Below, piece by piece: positions 2,190-35,017 of a DNA stretch of 35,017 nucleotides; the first letter of the stretch is position 1; every line of letters starts with the position of its first letter. Under the pieces are notes generated by a model. That model saw nothing but the letters and a program-made list of their open reading frames with translations, made no database searches and was not told the DNA's origin. The DNA is from Candidatus Kapaibacterium sp. (GTDB taxonomy: Bacteria > Bacteroidota > Ignavibacteria > Kapaibacteriales > UBA4661): NCBI GenBank assembly GCA_004292595.1, contig RDXM01000114.1:1-35017 (forward strand), read 5' to 3'. The position numbers and the translations under genes were made by a program.

Positions 2190-2206
2190 AAGAGCCGCCA
2201 ATGCTC

Positions 2207-2272
2207 ACTTCGCACTTCATACTTCGCACTTCATACTTCGCACTTCATACTTCGCACTTCATACTTCGCACT
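2207..2272 (+). repeat. 14-bp tandem repeat, 4.7 copies
   Basis: The unit ACTTCGCACTTCAT repeats four times exactly (2207-2262) and is followed by ten bases of a fifth copy. Each unit is itself two 7-mers (ACTTCGC/ACTTCAT). It fills the gap between the glycosyltransferase stop and the flippase start. Read on the minus strand it gives TGA or CGA every 7 bases, the pattern seen in other gaps of this window. Confidence 0.95.
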
Positions 2273-7544: not shown

Positions 7545-7547
7545 ATC

Positions 7548-7589
7548 AAAGGCAAAAAGATAAAGGATAAGGGCAAAAGGTAAAAACGA
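7548..7589 (+). repeat. A-rich 7-bp repeat after the small gene
   Basis: Six degenerate heptamers in register (AAAGGCA, AAAAGAT, AAAGGAT, AAGGGCA, AAAGGTA, AAAACGA) begin three bases after the stop codon. They include TAA triplets at 7561 and 7568. Confidence 0.7.
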
Positions 7590-7624
7590 GTATTTTCCCG
7601 CGAAGATTATTTCGTACACCTTCA

Positions 7625-7674
7625 GCCAAAAGCCGCTTTCTCACGCAAACGTGCGTTGGGAAGCGGCTTTTGGC
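7625..7674 (+). terminator. Strong hairpin, probable terminator
   Basis: GCCAAAAGCCGCTT (7625-7638) pairs perfectly with AAGCGGCTTTTGGC (7661-7674), with a further inner ACGCA/TGCGT pairing. It lies 80 bases after the small gene; the tail GTTGTTGTT is only moderately T-rich. A second, smaller stem-loop CTACCGTT-tctg-AACGGTAG follows at 7688-7707. Confidence 0.65.
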
Positions 7675-7707
7675 GTTGTTGTTCGTCCTACCGTTTCTGA
7701 ACGGTAG

Positions 7708-8083
7708 AACGGGTTTCACGGTACTATTTTCTGAGATACTCAATTTCTGCAACACCCGTTCACCGCTTAGGAAAGCGCAGGATGCGAAGACCTGAACAGT
7801 GACAAACACTTTACATAAGCCGAGAAATTCGGCATAAAATTTGCATTCTGTATTCGCGGGTCAAAATGTGCTGCCAGATGCCTAAAAATGGGACAAATGC
7901 AGCCGTGACCAAGACTTGATGAAGAAAAGAACGAAACGAGAGATGATTGAAAAAACAGCACTTGTGAGAAATGTTCTGAATTTGTGTTCTCAATTTGTCA
8001 TGCTTTATTTGTCATGCTTCATGTATCATGCGTTATCCCTCACGAAAATTCCCTCTTTTTAATTCACACACTTCTTTGTTTTT
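7708..8083. other. Leader region of the giant gene
   Basis: About 375 bases with no gene. It holds a weak stem GCCGA/TCGGC at 7819-7833, a near-consensus TAAAATTTG at 7835-7843 with no clear upstream TTTG partner at 19 bases, and the heptamer array 7998-8042. A long 5' leader is possible. Confidence 0.4.
7998..8042 (-). repeat. 7-bp array of antisense stop triplets ahead of the giant gene
   Basis: TCA or TTA (stop codons when read on the minus strand) start at 7998, 8005, 8012, 8019, 8026, 8033 and 8040, exactly seven bases apart seven times. At the base level it is a degenerate 14-bp repeat (ATTTGTCATGCTTT and relatives). Confidence 0.85.
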
Positions 8084-8095: not shown

Positions 8096-11000
8096 ATGAA
8101 CTCTCTACACACTTCTCTTCCGCAGAAAACGCCCATTCGTGGCGTAGCACTGCGCCCTCAGGAAGAGACTTGCGCAGAACGAACCGTATTGCACGGAGGC
8201 GTAACGACGACTGCCATAGCGCAGCGCCGAGCAACGCTCTTTGCCCGCAGTATGGACGCTTTGCGCAAAGCTACTCGTGGCGAAGGTATGATGCCGCACG
8301 TGATAGCCTTTTGTATTGCTCTTTTTGCGGTGCTGAATATGGCACAGGCACAAGCAACATATTTCTGGGTTGGTGCAAATACAACATCTGCTGACTGGGG
8401 ACAACCTGCCAACTGGAGCCTTACTTCTAGCGGTCCTGGTGGTGCTGGTGTTCCGGGCTTCCCATATGGAAACGTTCAAGACGTTGCTATTTTTGATGGT
8501 AATACAAACGTCACCATTCTCACAGGCTTTCCGACGAATGGTGCGGCGGCTGCCGTAGGGCAGATTCGCCTGTTGAATAGCTTTTCCTCTGGTCCGCAGG
8601 TAACCTTTGGTGGTGGTGCATCAACGGTCGCTACTATCCGCTTGGGCGGTACGGCTGCCAGCACAAACTCACCGCTTTTTGTGGGGTCGTTGTGCCGTTT
8701 ATTTATTGACCAAAATATTACGATGGATATGACGGCGAACGTCAATAGTTTAATGAACCCTTCTGCCTCTATTTTCGGTGATTTATCCATTCGTATCGGT
8801 GGCACAGTAACAAACAGCGTTGCTTCTCGCTTTAGAATTGAAGATGGTGGCTCGCTGCGTATGTCGGGTGGTACCTTTACCGCAGCCGGCGCGACGAGTG
8901 CTGTTGAGTACTCGCTTACAGGAAATCGCGGCTCGCTCGTTTATGATCGCGATGACAATACAACCGTTATTATTCCTGCTGCAAATGATGCGACGGAAGT
9001 ACCAACACCAGGAACAGCATTTTTAGGGAATCTTGTTATTCGTCGCCCTATAGCTTCTGTTACAACATTTACCAATGGTGGTGTACGGCAGATTGGTGGT
9101 ACATTAATTGTTGATGGTTGTGCGCTGAATTTACCCAATGCCATTACGATAAATTTGGCAGCAAGCCGTATGGTGAACAACGGTAATATCTTTGCTGCAA
9201 GTACAACATTTAATACGAATCTCGTGTATCGTGATTTGGCGGCGGCGGCGGGCAGAACACCACTTAATCCCACCGTTTCCGACTTGTCATTTGGCGTGAA
9301 CCCTGCGGGAATTATTCCCAATGGTCAGTATCTGGGTAGCTTGACAAACAACATTGCTACGATGAATTTGTCTATTAATTCTGATTTGAACATTGTTGCC
9401 ACTGGTGCTGCAGCTTCTGGTATTACCTTAGGAGATGCCACAGTCCCAGTAGCTGGCGGGCAAATTACCATTCCCGCAACACGCACTCTGACCTTACGTC
9501 TTGGAACAGGCACAATTGCTGCGCCGAACAACACTGGTCGCTTGATAATTGATGGTACCTTCGCCATTGCGACGGGCGCAACGCTCGCAAATAATAATAC
9601 GAATGCCAACAGCCCGCTTGCTGGTCTCTTGATAAACCCAGGTGGTCGTATTCAGCTCAATGGTAGCGCGACAATAACAGGTACTGCCAATGGTGCTTTC
9701 TACAACGGTCCAACAGCAACGTTGGAATATCTTGATAGAAACGCTGCTACGGCGGGACTCATGCGAGCATTTACAGGAGTTGCCGCATATGCTGCTCCAG
9801 CTGGACCGCGCACTGCTTCGACCGCAGAACTTCCCGCAGATATGCGTGGTGCTGTTACGGTGAATCGTCTTTATAGCGAAGCAGGCGGAGCAGCAACCGT
9901 TACCAGCCTTGTTGCGCTGCAGCAAAATACAGTAATGAATGGTCCTTTAACGCTTGCGCAAGGAACGTTAGGCTTGAATAGCCAACAACTTATCTTAAAT
10001 GGTACTGTTACAAGTTCTGGTGGTTTTATATCTGGCAATGATGCAGCCGGAACATCGGCTTTGGTATATAATTCTATTGCTCCAGGAACACTCCTTGTTA
10101 CGACAGCGACAACTGCTCCGCATGGAAATTTCTTCAATTACATGGAGATCAATAATACTGGTAGTCTCAGCCTCGGTGTTCCAGGATTGGCAACGTCAAG
10201 ATTGACTATTAACGGTGCTACAGCGCAAGCTGCATATGGTTTGGCAGGTGTTTCCAACTATAACGGGCAGCTTCGTTTTAACAGTACAGGCAATCTTATT
10301 TTGAATGGTGCCGAAATCACCTTCTCTGGCGCGGGTGCAGCAAACACAACGCCCGCAGCACAGGGTGGTCATATTCCCGTTACGAGCGCGTCAGTCGGTG
10401 CAATTTTTGGTGATGGCTCTTCACAGCTTATCTTCTTGTCCAATCAAATTCGTTCCTTCCCGCGTTTCGCCCCGGGCGGACAGGTGCTGAACGAATTGCG
10501 TGCGCAGGCTGACGGTGTGGCTGCTGCTGCTCCTGGCGGTACGGCTCCCACCGCTTTGATCGATTACATGGTTTCGCTGCGTACAGTCCTCCAAACAAAC
10601 ACGTTGCGCTTACAGAACAACGCAATTCTTCAGCTTGGCAATAACGCAAATCTTACGGTCTTGAACCCACCAGATTTGGCAACGGCGACGAATATCCCGA
10701 ATAATGCGGGCAACTTCATTGATGCGTCGCAGGGCGGTTCTTTGCAGCTTCGTGGCTATCTTGCTGCTGGCAACGTTCTTCTGCCGATGGGTGTGAGTTT
10801 TGTCGGTGTGAACGGTGCAGTTCTGCCCTCGCGGTATCGCCCTGCCATCGTGAGCAATAGCGTTACGACTTCGCCCGGCGAAAACTACACCGTTACGGTA
10901 ACCTCCAACATCGTCAATCTTGTTCCTTCGATTCCTTCGCTTGCCAATAATAGTATGCGCGGGCAATGGAATATCTCCAGCGGCTCGGGTATGAACGGTG

Positions 11001-14000
11001 CTGGTGGTGTGCTGACGCTCGGCTGGGGCAATACAGCATTCCCCCTCCCAGCACCGACGGTTGCGGGCGATAACCCTGCGGCGTTTGCGGCAACGCTCGC
11101 TGCTGCCGGTCCGCCAGCAGGTATCAATTTGACCACAATTCGCCGTTGGACAGGAACAACCTACAGCAACGTCCTTCCAACAACGCCTGTTGTCGGTCTT
11201 GGCGTGAATGCTCGTAGGATTCAGGCAACCTACAACGGTGCGCTCAGTAACACCGTCTTTATTGTTTCCAACGAACTCTTCCCCGTGTACTGGGTTGGTG
11301 GCTCTCAGGCAACAGGTGATTGGGGTGTGGCTGCGAACTGGGCTTCGAGCTCGGCTGGTACGGGTGGTTCGGCAAATCCGCCGGGCGTGAGTGATTGGGC
11401 GGTCTTCGACAAAGCGCAAGCTCCACGCATCACAACCAATATCCCGCCGAATATTCAGCAATTAAGCGTCATTGAAGGAGCAAACGTTACGCTCGCTCCT
11501 ACCGACGTTCCGCGCACACTCAGCGTCAACCGCGACTTGGCAGACAACGACAACATTCTTATTGGTCCAAACTCACGTCTTGCTATCGGTACAGGAGGAT
11601 TTCCCTTTGAATTGACGGTTCCTCTTACAGGAACAGCAAATGGTCCGAACACGTCTATTTTTGGTACACTTTCCGTTTTGGGTAACAGCACCTACAACCA
11701 TAAAGACGGAAACAGTACCATCCTGATTGCCAATGGTGGTACGCTTCATATCGGTGCTGCATCGGGTTCGTCGGTGCCTGCGACGACGACAGGCTTCCAG
11801 AAATTAGCAGCAACAACCTTGCGATATGGTAGCAACACAAACTCTACGCCGCCATACACATTTGCGGGAGCAAACGATTTTAATACGCAAAACGCAACCC
11901 TGCTCTACGAAGATGCTGCTGGTGGAACAGATACTCGTACGCCAACCGGTACAACGGGTGAGCTTCCAGCTGCGCCGTTTCCGGGTAATATTGTTATCAA
12001 TAAAACCTTGCCAGGGGCAAGATTCCGCTTCAATGTGAATTATCAAATTACGAGTACCGCAACCTTGCGTGCTGGCATTCTTGATTTAACAACGGGTGGT
12101 GTGCAGCTTGATGTCGGCACAGCAACCAATCCAGGCGGTAACAGCATTGATAATCCGCCAGGAAGCCGCACATTGAATATCACAGGTTCATTGCCTGACA
12201 CGGGTATTCTCGGCGACCAAACAAATTCTATTCTTCGCTTGAATGGCGCAGGTACGCATACGCTTCAGTTCGTTCCGAATGGTGAGCTTTTGAATACTCT
12301 TACTCTTGAGGACCTCGCAAACCCCGCTCCGAACTCAGCCCTGACCGCAAATCTTGTAACGAATCTCCGCGTAACAACCTTCAACATGACCAATGCTCGC
12401 ACGGCGGTTTCTACTACTGCTTCGGGTATGATTGTGAATCCAAATCTCACCTTCCGTGTTGATGGCACAGGTACTATCACAAGCGGTCGTATGCTCGTGG
12501 ACGGCACACTGGCACTCCCTAGCGGCGGTGCTATGGCTTTGCCAGCAGCAGTTGCAACCGGTGGTATAGATATTGGCACAACAGGAACATTGAATATCAT
12601 TAACAATGGTAACGTAACCGGTACGCCAGGCGTGAATCCTGTGCGCTACTTGAATGCTGCTTCGCGTCTTTTGTATTCTGCCGAAGGTATGGGGTTTGCG
12701 AATAAATTAGCCGTCCCGATGGTATTCCCACAAATTTTCAATGGTAGCTTAGTTATTGATAAAAACTTTTCGGCGGCAACAACAACCAACACTGTGGACC
12801 TAGCTGGTGCGAATGGCTGCCGCGTGGTAACGCAAGGAACAGTCGAACTTCGTGGTGGCGATTTACGCCTCATGGGCTTTATGTTCAAAGTTGGTAGCGC
12901 GGCGCAAACGCTTCCTGCTGCTGCGGACCTTCTGAACAATACCATTTCTCCTACTGCCCGCATTTTGCCGGGTGGCGGTCGTATTTTTGGTGATGATGCC
13001 GCAGGAACATCGTCGTTTGTCTATAACGGCTCACAAAACGGCAATCTTTTCTTGGGAACAGTGAATGCTACTGGCACTCATCTTGGTCGTTTCTTGAATA
13101 AACTTGAGATTAACGGTCCAGCAACCTTGACGCTTTCGACAGGTGCCGTTGTGAATATCGAATCAGGTGGTACGCCTGCCTGCGACGGTACGTATCAAGG
13201 CACACTCCGCTTGGATAACAGCGTAGGAAACTTAGCACTTAATGGTAGCTCATTGCGATTGACAGGGACAACTGCTCCAGCAGCAGGGCAAATCCTCACA
13301 AACGTAACAAGCGGTACGATTTCTGGTGATAATCTTCCGGGTACGTCTATCGCAATTACCTCGCAGCGTATTTTCAATGTGCAGATGGCTTTTAATGCAA
13401 ACTCATTGCGTCAGTTTAGCTTGAATCCTGCTGCGACTGTTCCCGCTGTCGGGCAGCGTCAAATCTCGCTCTTGTCGTCAATGACAGCCGATGCGGTGGG
13501 CATTACGCGGAACATCGTTTCGCTGATGAGCCCGACGGTGAATTTGACGATTACCGGAGCAGGTGCAAATGCAACCAGTGGTAATCTCACGGCTGCACAA
13601 GCAAATTTTGGCTTGCAAAACAATAACTTTATTGACTTGTCGCCCGGTGGCTCGCTGACAATGACCATTCCGAATAACACCTTCCGCACCTTCCCGATTG
13701 GCGTAACGAATAATACACAAAGTTTCATTCGCCCTGCGCCACTGATGATTGGCAATCAAAGCGGTTTGGTAGATACCTACACCATTAGCCTTCAGCGTGG
13801 TTTGACGTTCCAAAACGCAACCTATCCCGACAGAGTAAACGCGCAGTGGACGATTGCAAAAAGCACACCAGCGGCAACAAACCAACTGGTGCATTATGGC
13901 TGGCACACAGAACACGAAACAGGCTTGCCTGGGTTCTTCCGTCAGAATACCTTTGCTGCACAGTGGAATGGCGCGAGCTACAGCCAAACGGCTTCGTCGC

Positions 14001-17000
14001 TTTCTTCGGCTGTTACTGCATCGGCACCGGCGGTGACTGGTCCAGAGTGGGGGCATACGGTAAGCTACTCATCGGTGAACATGGCAGCAACAAACCCGTT
14101 TGTTATTCTCACACCGCCATCGGCAATTATTTTGGCAGCAGACTCGCTTGCTCCATCAGCTTCTGGTGGTTTTAATACGGGTGCTGGCTCGTTTGGCTTC
14201 TTGAGTCCAAATGGTGGGAATCTCACTATCACGAGTGGCGAGCCGTTTACCTTGCGCATTAGCGCGTTTGACGGTTTGAACCAACGTTCTCCCGTCAGAA
14301 CAAACACCTTTGTCCGTGCGAATCTTATGGCACTGCCAGGCGGTACGGCAACCTTCAGCACAACAGGCACAGGTGGACTTATCTTAGGTGTAAACTCACC
14401 GATTCAGCTTCTTCAAGCAGGTAATTCAGTAAGCGCAACCACAACAAACTTGGTGTTTGATTGGTTAAACCCAAGCAATCAATCAAGCACACAAGCAACG
14501 TTGATTTTGTACGACCAGAGCGGAGCGGCAAATGCCTTAACCTCTGTGCCTCTGACTATTACGATTCTTGCGCCGCCGCCACGTTCTTCCACGATTGCCT
14601 ACTCGCAAGTGCAGAACTCTAGCACTGGCACACAAGGCTTTAATGGTGGTGGTTTGGGGCAGTTCAACATCATTGGTGGTGTACAGTTCCCGATTGATTT
14701 CGGCTTCTACTCACGAGACAACTTCTTGCTTGGGACAAATGCAGCAACCAGCGTGTTAGTAACCGTTACACCGCTTACTGGCGGCGCGATGCTTACGACA
14801 ACAGGAAATATTCCCATCACGATGACAACGAGCTTGCTCATCAATCCCGCATATGTGAATGGTACGCTGACAAGTGCCATCAATGGTCGTATCAGTCCGA
14901 TTGTGAACTGGACAAACGCTGGTATGGGAGGTGGTGTCGTGCAGGGGCTACTAACCCTCACGGCGAACCCTGGTACCCCGTTCCGTTTTTCCACAAGCGT
15001 TATCGTCAATATCGGCACAGGAGCAACCGTTCCTGCGCGTTTGGGCTACTCGGTTAATTCAGGTGATATTTCCGACCCTGTTCGTTCGCTCTCTGGCATC
15101 AACAACGCAAACTTCACGCCAGCAGGGACAAATCCGATTATTACGGGTGTTCCGTTCCCATTAAACTTTGCTGCCTTTGCTCAAAACGGCATGGTCGTTC
15201 GTCCTGAGACACCGACGCAGGTAGAACTCACGGTGTCGTCAGCAGCCGGAACAAATGCAACCTTTAGTTTGCTGGGCGGTGGTCCGACCTTTATTGCCTC
15301 CACCAATGGTATTGGCTCGCTACGACCAACCATTATTTGGACAAATCCAGGTTCGGTGCCGAGTTACGGCAACGCAGTCATTACCCTAAGAGCTATTAGT
15401 GGACAAACAACGCTCTTGCTCACGACTGCCAACATTAGCATCTTCACAACAGGTAGTGTGGCGGCGGTCTTTGCGATGAGCCAAAGCTCGACCAACGGCA
15501 CACAAGGCATAAGCCTGAACAACAATCCCATACGTCAAGGCGGCACTGCCGACCCAGTTCGCGTGTCGAGCGGTACACCGTTCAATGTTGATTACGGTTT
15601 CTACAACGCATGGGGTATTCCGACCGCAAATTATCCAGCGAACTCGACCTTTACCCTCACCGTTACGCCGCCCGTTGGTCAGGATGTAACGATAGACGGT
15701 AATACCAACACGTCGTTGCCATTTGCTGTGCAGCGCGGTACGCTTTCCAATATCACTTTGAATTGGCGCAATCCGACAGGAGCAAATCCGCCACCGATTG
15801 ACGTAACGTTGAGGATTGATGCGGCATTTGCTGGCTTATCTACCACCGTTACCATTCGCTTGTCGTCGTCGGCAAATGCTCCAGCCTTCTTAGGCTTGAG
15901 TCAGCTATCCTCGACAAGTTCCGTCGGTATCAATAACGGTAGCCTGAACGTTACAAGCGGTCTTCCATTCAACGTGGATGCTGGTTTGTTTGACTTACAA
16001 GGCGCACTGACGCGCTCCTTGACAAACATCGGTGTCTTGCTGACGGTCGAACCTATTCCGACTGTTCCGGGTAGCGGCAGCGTTACTATCGCAGGTAATA
16101 CAGGTGGTGTATTTGTGAATCAGTCAGGTATTCGCTTCAACAATATTCTTCTGAATTGGAATAACCCAACAAGTAGTCCTTCCAGTACGCAGGTACGCTT
16201 GCGCATTAGCGGTACTTCTGGTGGCGCGGTGCTTTCTACCTCTGCGATTGTAACGGTCAATGCAGGAAACGTGTTCCCACGCATTTCTAACCTTTCTCCG
16301 GCAGTTGGTGGTCCAGGCACGGAAGTGCAGATTACAGGTGTAAACTTTACGGGCGTAAATGCTGTGAGCTTTGGCGGCATTCCAGCAGCGAGCTTCCGCG
16401 TCGCTGGCGATGGTTTGATTATTGCCGTAGCTCCTCCTGGCGTAAACACGGGCGCAGTAACGGTATCGCGTCCAGCGCAGGGAGCAATTCCCGCCGGCTC
16501 GAACGGAGGACAAACTCCAGCAGTGATATTTACCACTGGCTTGACTCCCGTTATTACGGAGCTTGTACCTTCCTCAGGTGGTTTGGGTGCGCGTATTCTC
16601 ATTCGTGGTATCAATCTCTTCAGCGTATCGGATATTCGCATTGCTGATATTCGCGCCGTTGTTGATCCAGACCCGAATTTGAACAACACAACGACGGGCA
16701 ATTTTGTGTGGGTACAGCTTACTGGTCCGCTTCTTGTTACGACGGGATCCTTCAGCGAAAGCCGCTCTGGTCCAGTAACAATGGCAACCTTAGGTGGCGT
16801 TATTACCTCAAGCCAACGCTTTACCTACAATCCGCCGCCAGTGATTACCTCAATTACGCCGAATACTGCCGTTGCAAACGGTCAGCCAGTGTCGGTTATT
16901 ATTCGCGGTACTGGGTTTAATTTCCCATTGAATCCTTCGCAGTCTGATATTATCACGGTTCAGCAATCTGGTGTGTTCTTCAACGTTATCAATAATCCAA

Positions 17001-18820
17001 TGGCAATTAGCCCCGCACTGCGCGTATCGGTGCAAAGCGTAACGCCAACGGAGATTCGCGCAACGATTTCTGGCTCGTTTACTAATCTGCAAGGGCAACG
17101 GTATGTGTACGTTCAAAACCAAGACGCACAATCCACCTTTGTTCCCTTCCAGCTAACGCCAAATCAACCGCCAGTAATTACGAGCATCACGCCAAATATC
17201 ACCACCGCAACGGGTGTGGCATTTGAAGCAATCGTCAATGGCTCGAACTTCTTTGGAGCTTCTGGTTTGACCGTTACGGCTCGCACTGCGGCTGGAGTGG
17301 TTTCTAATCTGCCCTTCCGCACACTCAGTCCATCGCAAGTTGCGGTAACGATTCCGATTCCTCTGAACTCAGCAGCGCAAAACTTAACCATTACGCTGCA
17401 AAACTCGGATGGTCAGTCGGCAGGTGTTGGATTTACCGTCCGCGATCCAGGTCGTCCGCAGATATTTACCGTATCGCCTTCACGGGCAGTTGCTGGCTCT
17501 TCAACGATGACCGTCACAATTACTGGTTCGGGCTTCTTCTTGAACGCAATTCCGAGCCTTGGAAATACTGAACTCCAAGTGTTGGCGCGCTCAACAACCA
17601 GCATCGTGGCAGTGATTCCAGCAGACCTTCTCTCAACGTTTGCTAATCCGACAATCGGAGTACGGAATCCACTCAGCTTCTCGACATCAATATTCTTCCC
17701 GATTGGCTATCCAGCACCGACGGTATCGAGCGTTTTGACAGCAAGCGGTTCAAATCAGGGACAACCTGTAACGGCTGCTTCTATCTTCCCGTTCCAGCTT
17801 GCGGTCAATGGTTCAGGCTTCCGCATCGGCGTGACAGCAACCTTCAATGGTCAAGCCGTTACGGTGGTGAGTACATCGCCAACGCAAGTCGTTATCGCGG
17901 TTCCGGGTGGTTTGAATACGCCAGGCGTGTTCCCCGTAGCTTTGAGCAATGCCGACGGTCAAAACGCATCGGGCTTGTTTACGATTGGCACACCAAATGG
18001 TCCGATTATTACTAGCATCTCGCCCCGCGAGGAAGTAGCTATCGGTCAGCCGTTTGTGATAACGCTCGAAGGACGGAACTTTAGCGTGAACGCGCAAGGA
18101 CAGATTCTTGCTGGAACGCAAGTTCTCTTCAACGGCGTACCGCTTGCAATCTTGCAGGCATCGTCCACACGCCTTGTTGCGCAAGTTCCAGCCGGCTTGA
18201 ACACGCGGGAAGGTAATGCGCTTGTCGAAGCAGTAAACTCCGACTTGCAACGCACCAGCATTCCGCTCACGGTAGGCTGCGCAATCTGTCCGATTGTCCG
18301 CAGCTTCACGCCAACAACGGTTCGCCCAACAAACAACTACGGTCATGACGTAACCTTCACCTTCCGTGGCTCGAATCTCAGCCCGAACTCGACGATAACG
18401 ATTGGCGGCTCGCCGCTTCGTATTGTGAGCGGCTCTGATTCGGTGATTACCGCAATCGCGCCGCAGGGCTTCTTCTTCGGTGATGGTCGCATTGTTGTTA
18501 CCAATCCCGACGGTCGTCGCTTTACGCTCTTCGGTCCGACGGTTGGTGTCAGCAACGTTGTTATTACGCCGCTCGCAGGACGCGCATATCCAAATCCAGT
18601 GGATGATATGCTTACCTTCGAGACCGATATCACCAGTTCAACGCTCTTGCGGGTTCGCCTGAGCGATGTACTTGGCAGAACGGTAACGTCGTTTGAGCAG
18701 CAGGTACAGCGCGGACGCTTCACACATCAACTTGATGTGAGTGGCTTGTCGGCAGGTGTGTATATCTTTGAAATGACCGACGGTCAGCGTCGTTTCACCG
18801 AGAAGATTATTAAACGATAA
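8096..18820 (+). CDS. Giant Type IX-secreted multidomain surface protein (3,574 aa)
   Basis: Probable cell-surface adhesin or fibre exported by Sec and then the Type IX system. A 64-residue Arg-rich extension precedes the signal core (MMPHVIAFCIALFAVLNMAQ, cleavage near AQA87). Two long homologous modules follow: the first opens YFWVGANTTSADWG at residue 89, the second VYWVGGSQATGDWG near 1065. Both are Thr/Asn/Gly-rich with recurring GDDAAGTS-like motifs and share NFIDxSxGGSL near their ends. Five repeats of about 145 residues start near 2020, 2165, 2312, 2457 and 2596. About eight IPT/TIG-like beta-sandwiches start near 2727, 2817, 2913, 3025, 3120, 3206, 3302 and 3398 (core PPVITSITPN...GTGF). 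The end, from AYPNPVDDML at 3497 through LSAGVYIFEM to EKIIKR, is a type A sorting domain. No catalytic domain was recognised. A strong terminator follows, so it is a single-gene unit. Confidence 0.93.
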   Translation: MNSLHTSLPQKTPIRGVALRPQEETCAERTVLHGGVTTTAIAQRRATLFARSMDALRKATRGEGMMPHVIAFCIALFAVLNMAQAQATYFWVGANTTSADWGQPANWSLTSSGPGGAGVPGFPYGNVQDVAIFDGNTNVTILTGFPTNGAAAAVGQIRLLNSFSSGPQVTFGGGASTVATIRLGGTAASTNSPLFVGSLCRLFIDQNITMDMTANVNSLMNPSASIFGDLSIRIGGTVTNSVASRFRIEDGGSLRMSGGTFTAAGATSAVEYSLTGNRGSLVYDRDDNTTVIIPAANDATEVPTPGTAFLGNLVIRRPIASVTTFTNGGVRQIGGTLIVDGCALNLPNAITINLAASRMVNNGNIFAASTTFNTNLVYRDLAAAAGRTPLNPTVSDLSFGVNPAGIIPNGQYLGSLTNNIATMNLSINSDLNIVATGAAASGITLGDATVPVAGGQITIPATRTLTLRLGTGTIAAPNNTGRLIIDGTFAIATGATLANNNTNANSPLAGLLINPGGRIQLNGSATITGTANGAFYNGPTATLEYLDRNAATAGLMRAFTGVAAYAAPAGPRTASTAELPADMRGAVTVNRLYSEAGGAATVTSLVALQQNTVMNGPLTLAQGTLGLNSQQLILNGTVTSSGGFISGNDAAGTSALVYNSIAPGTLLVTTATTAPHGNFFNYMEINNTGSLSLGVPGLATSRLTINGATAQAAYGLAGVSNYNGQLRFNSTGNLILNGAEITFSGAGAANTTPAAQGGHIPVTSASVGAIFGDGSSQLIFLSNQIRSFPRFAPGGQVLNELRAQADGVAAAAPGGTAPTALIDYMVSLRTVLQTNTLRLQNNAILQLGNNANLTVLNPPDLATATNIPNNAGNFIDASQGGSLQLRGYLAAGNVLLPMGVSFVGVNGAVLPSRYRPAIVSNSVTTSPGENYTVTVTSNIVNLVPSIPSLANNSMRGQWNISSGSGMNGAGGVLTLGWGNTAFPLPAPTVAGDNPAAFAATLAAAGPPAGINLTTIRRWTGTTYSNVLPTTPVVGLGVNARRIQATYNGALSNTVFIVSNELFPVYWVGGSQATGDWGVAANWASSSAGTGGSANPPGVSDWAVFDKAQAPRITTNIPPNIQQLSVIEGANVTLAPTDVPRTLSVNRDLADNDNILIGPNSRLAIGTGGFPFELTVPLTGTANGPNTSIFGTLSVLGNSTYNHKDGNSTILIANGGTLHIGAASGSSVPATTTGFQKLAATTLRYGSNTNSTPPYTFAGANDFNTQNATLLYEDAAGGTDTRTPTGTTGELPAAPFPGNIVINKTLPGARFRFNVNYQITSTATLRAGILDLTTGGVQLDVGTATNPGGNSIDNPPGSRTLNITGSLPDTGILGDQTNSILRLNGAGTHTLQFVPNGELLNTLTLEDLANPAPNSALTANLVTNLRVTTFNMTNARTAVSTTASGMIVNPNLTFRVDGTGTITSGRMLVDGTLALPSGGAMALPAAVATGGIDIGTTGTLNIINNGNVTGTPGVNPVRYLNAASRLLYSAEGMGFANKLAVPMVFPQIFNGSLVIDKNFSAATTTNTVDLAGANGCRVVTQGTVELRGGDLRLMGFMFKVGSAAQTLPAAADLLNNTISPTARILPGGGRIFGDDAAGTSSFVYNGSQNGNLFLGTVNATGTHLGRFLNKLEINGPATLTLSTGAVVNIESGGTPACDGTYQGTLRLDNSVGNLALNGSSLRLTGTTAPAAGQILTNVTSGTISGDNLPGTSIAITSQRIFNVQMAFNANSLRQFSLNPAATVPAVGQRQISLLSSMTADAVGITRNIVSLMSPTVNLTITGAGANATSGNLTAAQANFGLQNNNFIDLSPGGSLTMTIPNNTFRTFPIGVTNNTQSFIRPAPLMIGNQSGLVDTYTISLQRGLTFQNATYPDRVNAQWTIAKSTPAATNQLVHYGWHTEHETGLPGFFRQNTFAAQWNGASYSQTASSLSSAVTASAPAVTGPEWGHTVSYSSVNMAATNPFVILTPPSAIILAADSLAPSASGGFNTGAGSFGFLSPNGGNLTITSGEPFTLRISAFDGLNQRSPVRTNTFVRANLMALPGGTATFSTTGTGGLILGVNSPIQLLQAGNSVSATTTNLVFDWLNPSNQSSTQATLILYDQSGAANALTSVPLTITILAPPPRSSTIAYSQVQNSSTGTQGFNGGGLGQFNIIGGVQFPIDFGFYSRDNFLLGTNAATSVLVTVTPLTGGAMLTTTGNIPITMTTSLLINPAYVNGTLTSAINGRISPIVNWTNAGMGGGVVQGLLTLTANPGTPFRFSTSVIVNIGTGATVPARLGYSVNSGDISDPVRSLSGINNANFTPAGTNPIITGVPFPLNFAAFAQNGMVVRPETPTQVELTVSSAAGTNATFSLLGGGPTFIASTNGIGSLRPTIIWTNPGSVPSYGNAVITLRAISGQTTLLLTTANISIFTTGSVAAVFAMSQSSTNGTQGISLNNNPIRQGGTADPVRVSSGTPFNVDYGFYNAWGIPTANYPANSTFTLTVTPPVGQDVTIDGNTNTSLPFAVQRGTLSNITLNWRNPTGANPPPIDVTLRIDAAFAGLSTTVTIRLSSSANAPAFLGLSQLSSTSSVGINNGSLNVTSGLPFNVDAGLFDLQGALTRSLTNIGVLLTVEPIPTVPGSGSVTIAGNTGGVFVNQSGIRFNNILLNWNNPTSSPSSTQVRLRISGTSGGAVLSTSAIVTVNAGNVFPRISNLSPAVGGPGTEVQITGVNFTGVNAVSFGGIPAASFRVAGDGLIIAVAPPGVNTGAVTVSRPAQGAIPAGSNGGQTPAVIFTTGLTPVITELVPSSGGLGARILIRGINLFSVSDIRIADIRAVVDPDPNLNNTTTGNFVWVQLTGPLLVTTGSFSESRSGPVTMATLGGVITSSQRFTYNPPPVITSITPNTAVANGQPVSVIIRGTGFNFPLNPSQSDIITVQQSGVFFNVINNPMAISPALRVSVQSVTPTEIRATISGSFTNLQGQRYVYVQNQDAQSTFVPFQLTPNQPPVITSITPNITTATGVAFEAIVNGSNFFGASGLTVTARTAAGVVSNLPFRTLSPSQVAVTIPIPLNSAAQNLTITLQNSDGQSAGVGFTVRDPGRPQIFTVSPSRAVAGSSTMTVTITGSGFFLNAIPSLGNTELQVLARSTTSIVAVIPADLLSTFANPTIGVRNPLSFSTSIFFPIGYPAPTVSSVLTASGSNQGQPVTAASIFPFQLAVNGSGFRIGVTATFNGQAVTVVSTSPTQVVIAVPGGLNTPGVFPVALSNADGQNASGLFTIGTPNGPIITSISPREEVAIGQPFVITLEGRNFSVNAQGQILAGTQVLFNGVPLAILQASSTRLVAQVPAGLNTREGNALVEAVNSDLQRTSIPLTVGCAICPIVRSFTPTTVRPTNNYGHDVTFTFRGSNLSPNSTITIGGSPLRIVSGSDSVITAIAPQGFFFGDGRIVVTNPDGRRFTLFGPTVGVSNVVITPLAGRAYPNPVDDMLTFETDITSSTLLRVRLSDVLGRTVTSFEQQVQRGRFTHQLDVSGLSAGVYIFEMTDGQRRFTEKIIKR

Positions 18821-21909: not shown

Positions 21910-22704
21910 ATGAATCAGTCTGCTACAGTTTCTTCGTCATCCTCACTTGCCGTTATTATCCTTGCTGCGGGCAAGGGAACACGCATGAACAATCCCAACA
22001 AAGCAAAAGTCATGTTCGAGCTTTCTGGCGAACCAATGATTGATTTCGTCGTGCGCCAAGCAGAATCGCTCCATCCAGCGAAAATTGCGGTTGTGGTTGG
22101 CTTTCAAAAAGAATCGGTGATGCAGCACTTGGACGCGAGCTTTCATGGGCTTCGCAGCGCGGAGGTGTTGCACTATGCGCACCAAGACCAACAGCTTGGC
22201 ACGGGTCATGCAGTCATGCAGACAGAATCAGCATTGCAGAGCTTTTCGGGTGATGTTCTGATTCTCTCGGGCGATGTTCCTCTCTTACGCATTGAAACCT
22301 TGCAAGACTTCGCCGCATTTCACCGTGACAGCAAAAGTGTTGTTTCGGTGTTGAGCGTGGAAAATCCAAACCCAACAGGCTACGGGCGCATCGTCCGCGC
22401 CGCAAACGGCGATTTCGAGCGTATTGTCGAGCATAAAGACGCAAGCGAACAGGAGCGCAGTATCAAGGAAATTAATAGCGGAATTTACTTCGTTCAATCC
22501 AGTGCGCTCTTCCAAGCATTGCACCAGGTCTCGAACAGCAACGCGCAAGGCGAATACTACCTTACCGATATTGTGAGCATTGTCAGAGCCTCTGACGCGC
22601 CCGTTGCAGCGTGGAAATGCACCGCTTTCGAGGAAGTGCAAGGCATTAACACCGTCGAGCAGCTCGAAGATGCTCGCCGCGCACTCGAAGAGCAGTTTGC
22701 CTGA
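21910..22704 (+). CDS. GlmU-like UDP-N-acetylglucosamine pyrophosphorylase, single domain
   Basis: Probable nucleotidyltransferase making UDP-GlcNAc from GlcNAc-1-phosphate and UTP, feeding peptidoglycan and surface glycans. The 264 residues correspond only to the N-terminal Rossmann-like domain of GlmU: LAAGKGTRM (residues 18-26, nucleotide binding), QLGTGHAV, the metal-binding GDVPLL, GYGRI, VEHKDAS, EINSGIYF and GEYYLTDIV. The left-handed beta-helix acetyltransferase domain that normally follows is absent; the frame ends cleanly at 22704 and no hexapeptide repeats are found after it. The acetylation step must come from another gene, or the true substrate differs. There is no Shine-Dalgarno, because a 15-bp tandem repeat reaches to two bases before the ATG. 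Confidence 0.85.
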   Translation: MNQSATVSSSSSLAVIILAAGKGTRMNNPNKAKVMFELSGEPMIDFVVRQAESLHPAKIAVVVGFQKESVMQHLDASFHGLRSAEVLHYAHQDQQLGTGHAVMQTESALQSFSGDVLILSGDVPLLRIETLQDFAAFHRDSKSVVSVLSVENPNPTGYGRIVRAANGDFERIVEHKDASEQERSIKEINSGIYFVQSSALFQALHQVSNSNAQGEYYLTDIVSIVRASDAPVAAWKCTAFEEVQGINTVEQLEDARRALEEQFA

Positions 22705-22714
22705 AGACAAAGGA

Positions 22715-22752
22715 TGACATCTGAAAAATGAAGGATGAACAACAAAAGCTAA
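22715..22752 (+). repeat. 7-bp array of sense-strand stop triplets
   Basis: Starting ten bases after the GlmU-like stop, TGA begins at 22715, 22722, 22729 and 22736, and TAA at 22750, all in one 7-base register. Successive stops therefore fall in all three reading frames. Confidence 0.75.
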
Positions 22753-22776
22753 AAGCCTCATCAATCTTTGCTTTTC

Positions 22777-22825
22777 ACTCAAAACGTAGCACTCAAAACT
22801 CAGCATTCAAAACTCAACACTGAAA
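22777..22825 (-). repeat. 14-bp (2x7) repeat with antisense stop triplets before mce
   Basis: Units ACTCAAAACGTAGC, ACTCAAAACTCAGC and ATTCAAAACTCAAC are in tandem. TCA (TGA on the minus strand) begins at 22779, 22793, 22800, 22807 and 22814. The array ends four bases before the mce ATG, so no Shine-Dalgarno is present. Confidence 0.8.
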
Positions 22826-22828
22826 AAA

Positions 22829-23248
22829 ATGATTTCTGGCGTTAATCATCTTGGCATAGCTGTCCGCGACCTCGACGCAAGCATGGACTTGTATCGCCGT
22901 ATTTTTCGCGTAGAACACTTTCACCGCGAGCGCGTTGAAGAGCAAAAAGTAGAAATTGCTTCCTTTCGTGTTGGCGGAGTGCTGCTGGAATTAACCGCGC
23001 CGACGAGCGAGGATTCGCCCATCGCAAAATTTCTTGAAAAGCGTGGCGAAGGTATTCACCACGTTGCTTTTACCACCGATGCCGTGAGTGCCGATTTGGA
23101 GCGGCTTGCGAGCGAGGGCGTTCAACTTATCAATACAACCCCACAGTTGGGCGCACACGATATGCTCATTGCCTTTTTGCATCCAAAATCAACAGGCGGT
23201 GTGCTGATGGAATTATGCGAAGCGCAAAAAACCTCAAAGACTGCTTAA
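22829..23248 (+). CDS. mce: Methylmalonyl-CoA epimerase
   Basis: Interconverts (S)- and (R)-methylmalonyl-CoA, linking propionyl-CoA metabolism to succinyl-CoA. The 139-residue protein is a glyoxalase/VOC fold with two paired beta-alpha-beta-beta-beta units. Metal ligands are in place: NHLGIAV (His7), IHHVAFTT (His77/78) and LMELCE (Glu128), with VEIASF supplying the conserved Glu43. FRVGGVLLELTAP and LIAFLHPKSTGGVLMEL are family signatures. The start has no Shine-Dalgarno because it follows the 14-bp repeat directly. The mutase subunits are not in the window. A generic VOC enzyme is the alternative, but length and motifs match epimerase well. Confidence 0.92.
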   Translation: MISGVNHLGIAVRDLDASMDLYRRIFRVEHFHRERVEEQKVEIASFRVGGVLLELTAPTSEDSPIAKFLEKRGEGIHHVAFTTDAVSADLERLASEGVQLINTTPQLGAHDMLIAFLHPKSTGGVLMELCEAQKTSKTA

Positions 23249-23302: not shown

Positions 23303-24082
23303 ATGAAGCGTTCTCTCTCAATTCTTGTTTGCTGTGGCTTACTGCTCAGTACAAGTGTTTTTGCCCAAAAAGCAAAATCTAGTAAACAATCTAAAAAAAC
23401 AACGGCTACACCAGCAGGAGCAACAACGACTGCACCCACACCGCAAACCCTTGCGGACAAAGACGCAGCCTCGCGCAAAGCCGACCCCGAAATGGCACTG
23501 TTGGATTCACTTCAGAAATCCGACAAACGCTATGAATCCATTGAAGAAGCATTGAAAGAACCAGAAGCGGTGCGCTTTCTCGACCTTCACGAGAAAAACA
23601 TTACCTCGTTGCCGCCTGAAATCGGCAAGTTCGTGAATATGCACACGCTCAGTTTATACGGCAATCAACTTACCAGTATTCCTGCGGAATTTGGCAATTT
23701 GAAAAGCCTCAAGTCGGTAGATTTTGGTAAGAATCAACTGACGGAAGTTCCAGCGTGTGTTACGAAATTGAAGCAGTTGAAGGTGTTGTATTTTACCTCG
23801 AATCAAATTAGCAAATTGCCGAAAGAATTATTCGGACTGACAACGCTCAACGTCTTGGATTTTGGCGGCAATCAACTCACGGCTATTCCGCCTGATATGG
23901 GCAAATTGACCAATGTCCGCCTCTTGAATTTGCGCTACAACCGCATTGAAGCTCTACCCGACAACATGGGAAAGATGAAAAATTTAGAAATCATTATGCT
24001 CAATAATAATCCTATCCCTGAGAAAGAATTACGCAAAATTGACAAAATGCTAAAGAGTACGGACATCCGCTTTACCTATTAA
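23303..24082 (+). CDS. Exported leucine-rich-repeat protein
   Basis: Probable periplasmic or surface protein for protein-protein contact. It has 259 residues: a signal peptide (MKRSLSILVCCGLLLSTSVFAQ, cleavage after VFA), a Lys/Thr/Ala-rich low-complexity stretch to about residue 60, a short helical part, then about seven leucine-rich repeats of 23 residues from residue 90 (LxxLxLxxNxLTxIPxxxGxLxxL, as in LSLYGNQLTSIPAEFGNLKS) and a capping end. AGGAG at 23288-23292 precedes the ATG by ten bases. The stop codon TAA (24080-24082) forms the end of an 8-bp target duplication produced by element A1, so that element is inserted flush with the gene's end. No enzyme domain. The partner is unknown. 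Confidence 0.9.
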   Translation: MKRSLSILVCCGLLLSTSVFAQKAKSSKQSKKTTATPAGATTTAPTPQTLADKDAASRKADPEMALLDSLQKSDKRYESIEEALKEPEAVRFLDLHEKNITSLPPEIGKFVNMHTLSLYGNQLTSIPAEFGNLKSLKSVDFGKNQLTEVPACVTKLKQLKVLYFTSNQISKLPKELFGLTTLNVLDFGGNQLTAIPPDMGKLTNVRLLNLRYNRIEALPDNMGKMKNLEIIMLNNNPIPEKELRKIDKMLKSTDIRFTY

Positions 24083-24276
24083 GTAACTGGTCAGGTCTCA
24101 ACAATGAAGAGGGGACACAGATGAAGATGATTGAATGAATGAAGATGATATTGATAAAAAAAATCAGAGCGTGAATGCAGACCTTATCCGTTGTTGATGT
24201 TTTCTGCATTTTCATCATCTTCATCCATTCAATCATCTTCATCTGCGTCCTCAAAAATCATGACCTGACTAGTTAC
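24083..24276. mobile_element. Element A1: MITE-like, 15-bp inverted ends, 8-bp target duplication
   Basis: Left end GTAACTGGTCAGGTC (24083-24097) and right end GACCTGACTAGTTAC (24262-24276) are inverted with one mismatch. Flanks CCTATTAA at 24075-24082 and 24277-24284 are identical, the mark of an 8-bp target duplication. Inside, a 37-base arm (24113-24149) pairs with 24214-24250 with about two mismatches, and AATGCAG/CTGCATT form an inner stem. It has no coding capacity. The GTAA end and 8-bp duplication resemble IS66-family elements, an inference from general knowledge. A second copy is at 32180-32465. Confidence 0.85.
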
Positions 24277-24483
24277 CCTATTAACCCTATTACCATTTCT
24301 CTGTCAATCTTTGCCTTGTAAATATATAAACGGTGTAGATACTGATGTTGTATGCAGCATCGCTTATCTGCGCCGTTTTTCTTTTGCCGAGAGTCACAAA
24401 AAAACGCTATCTTGCGCTTCTGTACTGGCTTGTCATCGTGTAAAAAATCTTATTTGTATTTTTTCATTATTTCTACATTTGTT

Positions 24484-25186: not shown

Positions 25187-26911
25187 ATGCAGCGTCCTAT
25201 TGCCGTCTTTATCAGTCTTGCAGCCGTTTTGGTTGTGAATGTCATTGTGAATATGTGTTGTGTTCCAGAGCTTTCGGCGCAGGAATCCAAAATCTTGCAG
25301 GCAATGAAAGCCGAAATGCAGCGCACCATGACCGACCTCGCCAAAGAGCCGAATCCGCCGTACTTTAGCTCGTTTGCTATTACTGAAACGCAGTATGTTA
25401 CGATAAGTGCGGCATTTGGGAAAATTGTGCTGGAAGACTCCAACCGCACACGCACACTAGACGTGGAGGTGCGCGTTGGAAATTACGACGTGGATAACAA
25501 ACGGCAAATTCGCGGTACAAACTTCGAGATGGGCGGCTACTTTCGCGGTGCGGCGATTCCTCTGGATGATAACGTTGATGCCATTCGTGCGGCAATTTGG
25601 GCAAGCACCGACCGCCAATACAAAGCGGCGGCGGAGCGATATTTGAAAGTGATTTCCAACCGCGCTGTGAAGGTAAAAGAAGAAGATTCGTCGGGTGATT
25701 TTTCCAAAGAAAAGCCCGCGCAATACACCGAGCCACTCATTGAACTCCGCATCAATACTGACGATTGGCGAAAACGCTTGCGCGAACTTTCTGCGCTCTT
25801 CAATTCCGACCCCAAAATGTACGGCGGCGAGCTTTTTCTTCGTGCCGAAGTGCAGCACCGTTATTTCGTGAACAGCGAAGGAACGGTCTTGCAAACAAGC
25901 GATTCCTACGTGCGTGTCTTCGCGCAAGGTCGCACCAAAGCGGACGACGGTATGACGCTTCCGCTCTACCGCTCCTATTTTGCCTTTCAAGCAGATAGCC
26001 TTCCAACGCTTGATTTCATGCGGCGCGACATCCAAGAAATGATTGTGCTGCTTGGGAAATTGCGCGTTGCACCGCTTATGGAAACCTATTCAGGACCATC
26101 AATTTTATCGGGCGAAGCGGCTGGCGTGTTTTTCCATGAAATTTTCGGGCATCGCATCGAAGGGCATCGGCAGAAGGATGTGAATTCCAGCCAAACCTTC
26201 AAAAATCTTGTTGGAGAGCGTATTCTGCCTGAGTTTATTGATGTTGTTTTTGACCCGCGTTTGCGCTCTTTGCGCGGACAAAATGTGGCAGGATATTTCA
26301 AATTCGACGATGAAGGGATTCAAGGACAACCCGTTACGACCGTGAAAAATGGTGTGTTTCGTGAGTTTTTGATGTCGCGTGCGCCGATTGACCAAATGCT
26401 GAACTCCAACGGACACGGGCGGCGACAAGCGGGTTTCCCTGTGGTGGCGCGGCAATCAAACTTAATCGTGAAATCAGCAAAGCAAGTTCCTTTCGACTCG
26501 CTTCGCAGCTTGCTTCGTGCCGAATGCAAAAAACAAAGCAAAGAATATGGTTTGTATTTTGTGGAAATTCAAGGCGGCTTTACCTTCACCAATCGTACCA
26601 TGCCGAATGCCTTCAACGTCTTGCCATTGCTGGTGTATAAGGTATATGCCGATGCCAGCCGAGCCGATGAAATTGTGCGCGGCGTGGACTTGATTGGCAC
26701 ACCGCTCACCACTTTCAAGCAAATAAGCGCGTCGGCGAATGATTTGGGCGTGTTTAACGGCGTGTGCGGCGCGGAATCAGGCGGTGTGCCAGTTTCTGCC
26801 TCGTCGCCGAGCTTGCTCGTGAATGTGATTGAAGCGCAGAAAAAAGCAAAATCCCAAGCAAAACCCCCTATTCTCGGCTTTCCCGCCTTGCCAGAAGGCA
26901 AAACAAATTAA
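25187..26911 (+). CDS. TldD/PmbA family metalloprotease with signal peptide
   Basis: Zinc protease of the TldD/TldE (U62) family. TldD and TldE normally form a cytosolic heterodimer that trims modified peptides. This 574-residue protein carries an N-terminal signal sequence (hydrophobic IAVFISLAAVLVVNVIVNM, cleavage probably at LSA31-Q32), so it should act outside the cytoplasm. The metal site is intact: HEIFGHRIEGH with His317, Glu318 and His322, and the distal Cys ligand region VFNGVCGAESGGVPVS with Cys527. The middle (residues 100-290) is a mixed alpha/beta region also seen in the family. No TldE partner is adjacent. A heptamer stop array starts in register with the TAA. Substrate unknown. 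Confidence 0.88.
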   Translation: MQRPIAVFISLAAVLVVNVIVNMCCVPELSAQESKILQAMKAEMQRTMTDLAKEPNPPYFSSFAITETQYVTISAAFGKIVLEDSNRTRTLDVEVRVGNYDVDNKRQIRGTNFEMGGYFRGAAIPLDDNVDAIRAAIWASTDRQYKAAAERYLKVISNRAVKVKEEDSSGDFSKEKPAQYTEPLIELRINTDDWRKRLRELSALFNSDPKMYGGELFLRAEVQHRYFVNSEGTVLQTSDSYVRVFAQGRTKADDGMTLPLYRSYFAFQADSLPTLDFMRRDIQEMIVLLGKLRVAPLMETYSGPSILSGEAAGVFFHEIFGHRIEGHRQKDVNSSQTFKNLVGERILPEFIDVVFDPRLRSLRGQNVAGYFKFDDEGIQGQPVTTVKNGVFREFLMSRAPIDQMLNSNGHGRRQAGFPVVARQSNLIVKSAKQVPFDSLRSLLRAECKKQSKEYGLYFVEIQGGFTFTNRTMPNAFNVLPLLVYKVYADASRADEIVRGVDLIGTPLTTFKQISASANDLGVFNGVCGAESGGVPVSASSPSLLVNVIEAQKKAKSQAKPPILGFPALPEGKTN

Positions 26912-26939
26912 AGGATGAGGAATGAAATCTGAGGGATGA
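26909..26939 (+). repeat. 7-bp array of sense-strand stop triplets, in register with the gene's stop codon
   Basis: The TldD-like gene's own TAA at 26909 is followed by TGA at 26916, 26923, 26930 and 26937, exactly seven bases apart. All three reading frames meet a stop within 21 bases. Confidence 0.8.
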
Positions 26940-26984
26940 AGTTTGGAACGCGTTTCTTGCACGATGTTCTAGCGCACCATCTCT

Positions 26985-27009
26985 TTACGCCTCACCACCT
27001 CAGCCCTCA
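26985..27009 (-). repeat. Antisense stop triplets before the TatD fusion gene
   Basis: TTA/TCA at 26985, 26992, 27000 and 27007 (steps of 7, 8 and 7), including an exact double heptamer TCAGCCCTCAGCCC. It resembles the arrays before the mce and giant genes but is less regular. Confidence 0.55.
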
Positions 27010-27035
27010 GCCCCCATACTTCCTCCTTTCCAACT

Positions 27036-28605: not shown

Positions 28606-28720
28606 TGAAATGTTGTCTGAAGTTTTCACGTGCAATCAAGTATTCAAACGCTTTTCATACTTCATAATTGATTCTTCCTCTTAGGAACGATGTCGAAATA
28701 AATGTATGATTTTCTTCATT

Positions 28721-28793
28721 AGTGGCACAGACATTCTTGTCTGTGAGTCTTAAAAGCCTATCAGGACTCACAGGCAAGAATGCCTGTGCCACT
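28721..28793. repeat. Palindromic element B, copy 1
   Basis: AGTGGCAC at 28721 and GTGCCACT ending at 28793 bound an inverted repeat of about 29 bp with two mismatches. Each arm is itself a small hairpin: left ACAGACA-ttct-TGTCTGT, right ACAGGCA-agaa-TGCCTGT. The two mismatches between arms are compensatory within each small hairpin (A-T versus G-C). It lies between convergent genes and could also act as a terminator. Confidence 0.85.
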
Positions 28794-28828
28794 GAAACCT
28801 AAAAAACACTTTATTTTTCAACCGTTCC

Positions 28829-30014: not shown

Positions 30015-30064
30015 TGTGCTTGTGGTGAGGATGAGGAAAATTTTTACATACCAAAAACATTACC

Positions 30065-30144
30065 CAGTGGCAGAGACATTCTTACCTGTAAGTATTGGTG
30101 CGGCACTCAGGCGAAAAATGCAGAGAAGAATGTCCAAGCCACTG
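30065..30144. repeat. Degenerate element B copy
   Basis: CAGTGGC (30065-30071) and GCCACTG (30138-30144) form the outer inverted ends, with GAGACATTCTTACCTGTAAG and AAGAATGTCC remnants of the element B arms inside. Many mismatches suggest an old copy. It lies upstream of crtW. Confidence 0.55.
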
Positions 30145-30192
30145 CGGAGTGATAACACTACGCGGTGATAGCACTACGGAGTGATAACACTC
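30145..30192 (-). promoter_or_regulatory. Three 16-bp iterons upstream of crtW
   Basis: CGGAGTGATAACACTA, CGCGGTGATAGCACTA and CGGAGTGATAACACTC are in exact tandem. Units 1 and 3 hold the dyad AGTG-ATAA-CACT. They start 130 bases upstream of crtW and also lie just 3' of the peroxiredoxin gene. Confidence 0.6.
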
Positions 30193-32091: not shown

Positions 32092-32168
32092 AGTGGCACA
32101 GACATTCCTGTCTGTGAGGTTAGTGCTGGATTCAGGTACAAAACACAGACAGGAATGTCTGTGCCACT
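32092..32168. repeat. Palindromic element B, copy 2
   Basis: A perfect 25-bp inverted repeat: 32092-32116 (starts AGTGGCACAGACATTC) pairs with 32144-32168. Each arm also contains its own hairpin ACAGACA-ttcc-TGTCTGT. It lies 65 bases upstream of kynU and next to element A2; both copies 1 and 2 are followed by GAARCCTAA. Confidence 0.88.
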
Positions 32169-32179
32169 GAAGCCTAATT

Positions 32180-32465
32180 GTAACTGGTCAGGTCATAATT
32201 TTTTTGGACGCAGATGAAGATGATTGAATGGATGAAGATGATGAAAAAGTAAAAAGTATTCATTTTAGGACTTTCGCAAACCTCACAGGCAAGAATGCCT
32301 GTGCCACTACAAAACTGATATATACTGGCTTTGGTGGTACAGACATTCCTGTCTGTGAGCTTCAAAAGCACATTTTGCAAAAGTCCTACATTTATTCTCT
32401 CATCTTCATCAATCCAATCATCTTCATCTGCGTCCCCTTGTTATTGCTCAGACCTGACCAGTTAC
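32180..32465. mobile_element. Element A2: second MITE-like copy, carrying a nested element
   Basis: Perfect 15-bp inverted ends GTAACTGGTCAGGTC (32180-32194) and GACCTGACCAGTTAC (32451-32465). Flanks GCCTAATT (32172-32179) and GCCTGATT (32466-32473) differ at one base, consistent with an ageing 8-bp target duplication. Subterminal arms 32206-32244 and 32398-32435 match those of A1. Its loop is interrupted by element C. Without C and its duplication the element would be about 158 bases, against 194 for A1. Confidence 0.87.
32266..32388. mobile_element. Element C: 123-bp MITE-like element nested in A2, 5-bp target duplication
   Basis: Inverted ends TAGGACTTTCGCAAA (32266-32280) and TTTGCAAAAGTCCTA (32374-32388) match at 14 of 15 positions. 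CATTT flanks both sides (32261-32265 and 32389-32393). Inside are two element-B-type hairpin arms in inverted order around the middle ACTGATATATACTGGC. Non-coding. A second copy in the opposite orientation starts at 34922. Confidence 0.87.
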
Positions 32466-34921: not shown

Positions 34922-35017
34922 TAGGACTTTCGCAAAATATGCTTTTGAAGCTCACAGACAGGAATGTCTGTGCCACCAAAGCCAGTATCTATCAGTTTTG
35001 TCGTGGCACAGGCATTC
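34922..35017. mobile_element. Element C, second copy, cut by the window end
   Basis: Begins with the element C terminus TAGGACTTTCGCAAA and matches the reverse complement of 32388-32293 at 91 of 96 positions, up to the last base of the window. The far end is outside. Confidence 0.85.

Follow-up and report, generated by a model that had tools for sequence, protein, structure and literature searches.

The window analyzed here is a 35,017-nucleotide stretch of a 4.6 Mb draft genome (G000) of Candidatus Kapaibacterium sp., and one of its gaps separates a TldD-like gene from a TatD-like gene. On the left of this gap the TAA stop of the TldD-like gene (26909–26911) is followed by TGA at 26916, 26923, 26930 and 26937, with a spacing of exactly 7 bases. 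These triplets belong to a left arm on the forward strand (26912–26943), assigned to a repeat family that we call family A; the arm begins with AGGA directly after the TAA and continues as TGA-heptads. A right arm, also of family A, lies on the reverse strand (26996–27023) and ends 12 bp short of the TatD-like start at 27036. Antisense stops on this side of the gap are at 26985, 26992, 27000 and 27007. Linking both arms is a predicted imperfect hairpin on the forward strand (26909–27029; -35.3 kcal/mol, z -2.55). The TldD-like protein has its closest relatives in MAGs labelled Ignavibacteria bacterium or Candidatus Kapaibacterium, so its host is not a cyanobacterium. Relatives without the array have the TldD stop at the same position, indicating that the array did not create this stop. 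Roughly half a dozen other genes do use the first TGA of their array as stop codon.

Similar arrangements occur elsewhere in the window. For example, a family A left arm on the forward strand (22715–22742), with four TGA triplets 7 bases apart from 22715, lies 10 bp past the stop of a nucleotidyltransferase gene (21910–22704), and a reverse-strand right arm of family B (CACTCAAAACTCAACACT; 22789–22816), with four antisense stops 7 bases apart from 22793, lies 12 bp ahead of the start of a glyoxalase-like gene at 22829. The forward-strand loop core of this gap, AAAAGCCTCATCAATCTTTGCTTTT (22753–22780), resembles the cores of other copies. A shared loop core of approximately AAAGCCTCATCAATACTTGCTTT is present between arms of different families in several gaps, including window 22753–22780 and L195 9700–9730, and the similar sequence CCATCAATAGCCTC follows an array in a locus of the cyanobacterial phylum (L269). 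A more partial arrangement spans 7548–8042, where a looser, TAA-containing (AAAGATAAAGGATAAGGGCAAAAGG) purine array of family C (AAAGGATAAGGG; 7545–7592, forward strand) directly follows the stop at 7544, and seven antisense stops 7 bases apart (TCATGCTTTATTTGTCATGC...; 7998–8049, reverse strand) lie about 50 bp ahead of a giant gene at 8096. Its open frame (8096–18820) is 3574 residues long and contains IPT/TIG domains as well as a Por secretion sorting domain at the C-terminus. An antisense array of 14-bp units of the CACTTCGCACTTCAT type (2206–2268, reverse strand) lies 21 bp ahead of a gene at 2290. No Rfam family matched above its gathering score in the window. The initial annotation had placed stop triplets every seven bases across 26909–27009, with like arrangements at 22715–22816 and, in part, at 7548–8042, and all of these are present in the sequence with the one exception that the antisense step from 26992 to 27000 is 8 rather than 7.

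Repeat unit, excess and orientation

Some 1.56 Mb sampled from the genome served for calling genes with a codon model and for deriving a weight matrix for the repeat unit; base-by-base reading covered about one third of the genome, and statements about the whole genome are based on pattern counts together with this sample. The unit is a degenerate TGA-R-R-K-N heptad that occurs in tandem, with 3–16 units per array. Its matrix frequencies are 0.90 for T, 0.99 for G and 0.99 for A, followed by a purine, a purine, G or T, and any base, where the T, G and A figures are partly built in because training used TGA seeds. The linkers draw on a small vocabulary of GGGA, AATC, AATA, GGGC, AGTA, AGGA and a few more, and runs such as (AGTATGAAATCTGA)n occur among the arrays, with units duplicated between orthologues. 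Besides the looser family C there is a second family, family B, with TGAGTTT and TGAGTGC units.

In the 1.56 Mb sample, which includes stretches picked for arrays, there were 58 intergenic arrays of at least 14 bits, whereas three rounds of dinucleotide shuffling gave 0, 0 and 5, indicating that the arrays are not a product of chance. The unbiased part of the sample contained 23 such arrays in 173 kb of intergenic DNA versus 6 in 901 kb of coding DNA, while a smaller first unbiased sample (83 kb intergenic) held 6 sense and 4 antisense exact arrays of at least four stops, relative to shuffle means of 0.5 and 0.8. The exact pattern TGA-N4-TGA-N4-TGA-N4-TGA occurs 129 times in the 4.6 Mb. A search for any period-7 array regardless of content showed no clear excess, which presumably reflects how degenerate the units are. 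The unbiased intergenic sample also contains many short tandem repeats of period 11, 12, 14 and 15 (18–26 segments each), with about one segment each for periods 11, 12 and 14 in shuffled intergenic DNA.

Arms start with a head, AAAGGA, that faces the gene, and as this holds on either side of a gap the TGA reads away from the gene, on the sense strand after stops and on the antisense strand before starts. The initial annotation had described such a strand preference around individual genes, and it is borne out by 77 of the 81 arrays located no more than 30 bp from a gene border in two species pooled. These comprise 44 of 47 in the genome of the window and 33 of 34 in that of a sister species at about 88% identity (G041/G005), with the sister-genome stretches picked around arrays and the gene calls being our own codon-model calls. 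As both the excess over shuffled DNA and the strand bias are present, the initial observation stands. At 3' ends the array mostly starts 1–14 bp after the stop, and at 5' ends antisense arrays lie 4–29 bp ahead of the start, with 21 of the 23 within 30 bp reading outward; outward-reading arrays are commoner at 3' than at 5' ends (35 versus 13). Closeness to genes is also evident in gaps of at least 150 bp, where 36 of 59 arrays lie no more than 15 bp from a gene relative to 8.2 expected under uniform placement.

Arm pairing and turnover between sister species

Where a gap holds two arms these converge in 24 cases and diverge in 1, with loops mostly of 14–52 nt, and a further 69 gaps hold one arm only. 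Among all gaps of 60–300 bp the median folding z relative to their own shuffles was -3.7 for two-arm gaps, -1.9 for one-arm gaps and -1.4 for array-free gaps. Individual gaps vary: besides the TldD–TatD gap at z -2.55, three other two-arm gaps fold at z -4.8 to -6.9, the two-arm gap in L195 at z -1.15, and window gap 22702–22828 at z -0.45, a weak fold that we ascribe to its arms belonging to different families (A and B). Arms that share a gap do not pair better than arms drawn from separate gaps (p = 0.10 and 0.14 by permutation), indicating that pairing follows from the common vocabulary, with no sign in these tests that individual loci maintain it. Locus-specific co-evolution of the arms was likewise not seen in this comparison, and the idea that each seventh base pair of the hairpin is mismatched by design, which several folds had suggested, was rejected given 41% Watson-Crick pairs at this position within gaps and 42% between gaps. 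The earlier proposal that the arrays pair as RNA, TGA against TCA, is supported in that the arms can pair, face each other and fold better in two-arm gaps, but the permutations do not show pairing to be selected.

A comparison of 48 orthologous gaps with G041 gave an array-like match in neither species for 31, in both for 3 and in one only for 14, with some of these 14 matches being weak or belonging to other repeats. One clean presence/absence site for a whole two-arm element was found among the gaps compared: the empty site (L112:10020-10080) measures 61 bp, and its filled orthologue (L195:9660-9820) measures 161 bp and holds a complete two-arm element a few bases past the stop of the upstream gene. 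At shared sites (L040:8930 versus L202:7352; L038:11570 versus L199:14599) the words differ while the TGA cores are mostly kept. No target-site duplication was recognised. REP/BIME elements are short intergenic palindromes that occur in high copy near gene ends; these have no tandem 7-base structure, and the arrays for their part have no REP-associated transposase (TnpA-REP) or other transposase partner beside them, with neither of the only two Y1-transposase matches (PF01797) in the genome adjoining an array.

Other repeats were also observed. Just after position 7722 of L051, a TldD relative of 96% identity has a long palindrome (CCCTCACCCAACCCTCTCCCAGAGGGAGAGGG) in place of the heptad arrays, a few bases past its stop, and the same or a similar sequence is present in L198, L202 and L091. 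An inverted-repeat element with AACTGGTCAGGTC ends and inner repeats of the GATGAAGAT type is located at window 24080–24290 and 32180–32245 and at about 13890–14035 of L084. A recurrent inverted repeat, GTGGCACAGACATTCTTGTCTGTG...CACAGACAAGAATGTCTGTGCCAC, which is often located within heptad gaps, is present at window 28720–28795, 30060–30150, 32135–32180 and 34950–35017 and also in L036, L037 and L112.

Distribution and related heptad systems

The head pattern AAAGGATGA-N4-TGA-N4-TGA has 62 copies in the genome of the window and 76 in its sister species (G005), with at most 2 copies in each of the other 294 genomes among the 296 sampled from the phylum, and the reversed-pattern control gave 0 in both sister species. 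Family A is thus restricted to two sister species within this phylum sample. Two genomes from other families of the order (G033 and G026) have many heptamer arrays made of other words (TGACRAG; TGAACCC/TGAACTA; 72 and 103 matches). Plasmid records matching an array query were mostly enterobacterial, and some of them matched at several places. In the cyanobacterial phylum, one genome of 146 (G386) has 31 head-plus-array matches, and in the eight of its loci inspected, two of them overlapping, several heads lie 0–16 bp from a gene, with head AAAGGATGA and the words AGTA and AGGA. A Dolichospermum enrichment is described as the source of a Kapabacteriales MAG of the same group (PMC7714850), an association that would allow exchange with cyanobacteria without demonstrating it.

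The likeness to cyanobacterial heptanucleotide short tandem repeats (STRR) raised by the initial annotation is well founded. STRR heptanucleotides form hairpins between genes, for example upstream of hoxW and between hupS and hupL in Nostoc/Anabaena, and roles in transcript stability or translational coupling have been proposed for them (PMC2670836). The arrays likewise consist of tandem degenerate 7-bp units, are intergenic with many copies in one genome, can form a hairpin between genes in two-arm gaps although many gaps are one-armed, and share a common head with the cyanobacterial-phylum matches; one STRR case also lies near the 3' end of the preceding gene. They differ in having a host on the Bacteroidota side (Kapabacteria/Ignavibacteria) and words of their own (AATC, AATA, GGGA, GGGC), and the head-faces-gene rule measured here was not found stated in the cited STRR literature. 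TAACTGA direct repeats, which occur sporadically in Beggiatoaceae, some Cyanobacteria and Bacteroidetes and whose three-frame stops were noted by their author (MacGregor 2015, PMC4679880), are also intergenic heptamers with stops in all frames that are sporadic between species, and they often adjoin a start codon. However, TAACTGA is a single fixed heptamer that mostly runs forward toward the start, while the arrays have a degenerate vocabulary with the opposite sense (TCA) before starts and TGA after stops, and the TAACTGA unit itself is not formed by the linker tetramers found in the arrays. The P6b stem of the Nostoc trnL intron is built of Class I (TDNGATT) and Class II (NNTGAGT) heptads with wholesale class replacement (PMC4476775). 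Its stem arms of degenerate heptads are similar to the arrays, and family B (TGAGTTT, TGAGTGC) fits NNTGAGT, but the P6b heptads sit inside an intron stem and the arrays between genes. We file the arrays as the STRR-heptanucleotide kind, of cyanobacterial type, in a new host lineage and with an orientation rule that is clear. What they add to this kind is the host, the measured rule, a family (A) confined to two sister species, and a site that is filled in one species and empty in the other.

Origin and possible roles of the arrays

The initial annotation had read the arrays as stops which, at a spacing of 7, fall in all three frames and make the gaps opaque to read-through on both strands. 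The 7-base spacing of a stop core and the outward orientation fit this reading, but the variants of the core contradict it. Specifically, among 220 interior triplets between TGA cores 14 bases apart there are 201 TGA, 5 CGA, 3 TAA and no TAG, so TAA and TAG do not stand in for TGA, which argues against selection for stops since this would accept both. The constraint also extends outside the stop triplet, the two purines after TGA (purine-purine-K) being as much a part of the unit as TGA itself, and before starts the outward rule holds equally on the antisense strand, for which read-through does not matter. Genes followed by an array end in TAA, TGA and TAG in 36, 14 and 7 cases, close to the 413, 147 and 104 of the genome, so that no particular stop codon is associated with the arrays. 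The TGA pattern and the reversed control (AGT), moreover, have similar overall frequencies across 41 genomes of the order, and arrays are gained and lost between the sister species. Stop codons are neither interchangeable within arrays nor confined to the sense strand after genes, and on the core variants, the antisense placement before starts and the ordinary stop usage we reject a stop-array function as extremely improbable. Nothing suggests that the arrays work as stop signals, and the stop triplets are probably a by-product of the TGA core.

Selection for a cis-acting RNA, in which a purine arm with a hairpin after the stop would protect or end the mRNA and a G-poor TCA arm would serve as a leader for Shine-Dalgarno-independent ribosome landing, has more in its favor. 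Besides the tight distances after stops (mostly 4–14 bp) and the preponderance of 3' over 5' ends, the family B pattern AAAACTCA-NN-ANTCAAAACTCA lies 10–32 bp upstream of the ATG in 15 of 23 sites among the loci inspected in the genus. These leaders are nearly G-free, and few genes of this organism have Shine-Dalgarno-like motifs (79 of 552, versus 18 in a control stretch), which from the sequence makes a leader function for family B plausible. The arrays are, however, mostly unshared between species at about 88% identity, the arms of a gap do not covary and most genes have no array, and as a general explanation we consider a cis-acting RNA rather unlikely. Plain microsatellites, arising through replication slippage on chance seeds with neither transposition nor function, would account for runs such as (AGTATGAAATCTGA)n and for unit duplications between orthologues. 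Slippage on random seeds does not produce a head and vocabulary common to scores of unrelated loci, nor the orientation rule or the closeness to genes, and this explanation is quite improbable. Still more improbable is a binding array for a putative protein reading TGA-RR heptads (S1, cold-shock or CsrA-like), as proposed for the TAACTGA repeats. The core being kept while linkers change at shared sites is in line with such an array, as is the report that the cold-shock protein CspB binds as one protein per heptamer (PMC4679880), but the arrays lie on opposite strands at 5' and 3' ends and are rapidly gained and lost.

We consider it moderately probable that the arrays are arms of a small STRR-type intergenic repeat. 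Each arm consists of the head AAAGGA and about 3 to 9 degenerate TGA-R-R-K-N heptads set against a gene border with the head toward the gene, and two arms in one gap are predicted to form an imperfect hairpin spanning it. The family would spread non-autonomously, its arms being copied to gene borders and then remodelled by slippage, and an effect at the RNA level, through a hairpin beside the stop or a leader poor in G ahead of the start, may be tolerated or mildly useful. Points against such copying are that most arms are solitary (69 one-arm versus 24 two-arm gaps) and that neither a transposase nor a target duplication was recognised. The basis for mobility is thin, with one clean empty site and several orthologous-gap matches that are weak or belong to other repeats. 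A more specific version, in which a putative enzyme recognising gene borders or mRNA would copy the repeat to translation boundaries, a few bases past stops or ahead of starts and head to gene, with horizontal exchange between co-living Cyanobacteria and Kapabacteria, is speculative and on balance unlikely.

Neither the origin nor the function of the cyanobacterial heptanucleotide repeats is settled, and their occurrence with the same head in a second, unrelated lineage, under a rule that can be measured (head to gene, within about 15 bp), makes a vague repeat class testable. Comparing which sister species has an array at a given site yields the insertion point, and from the location beside stop and start codons clear predictions follow for mRNA ends and translation.
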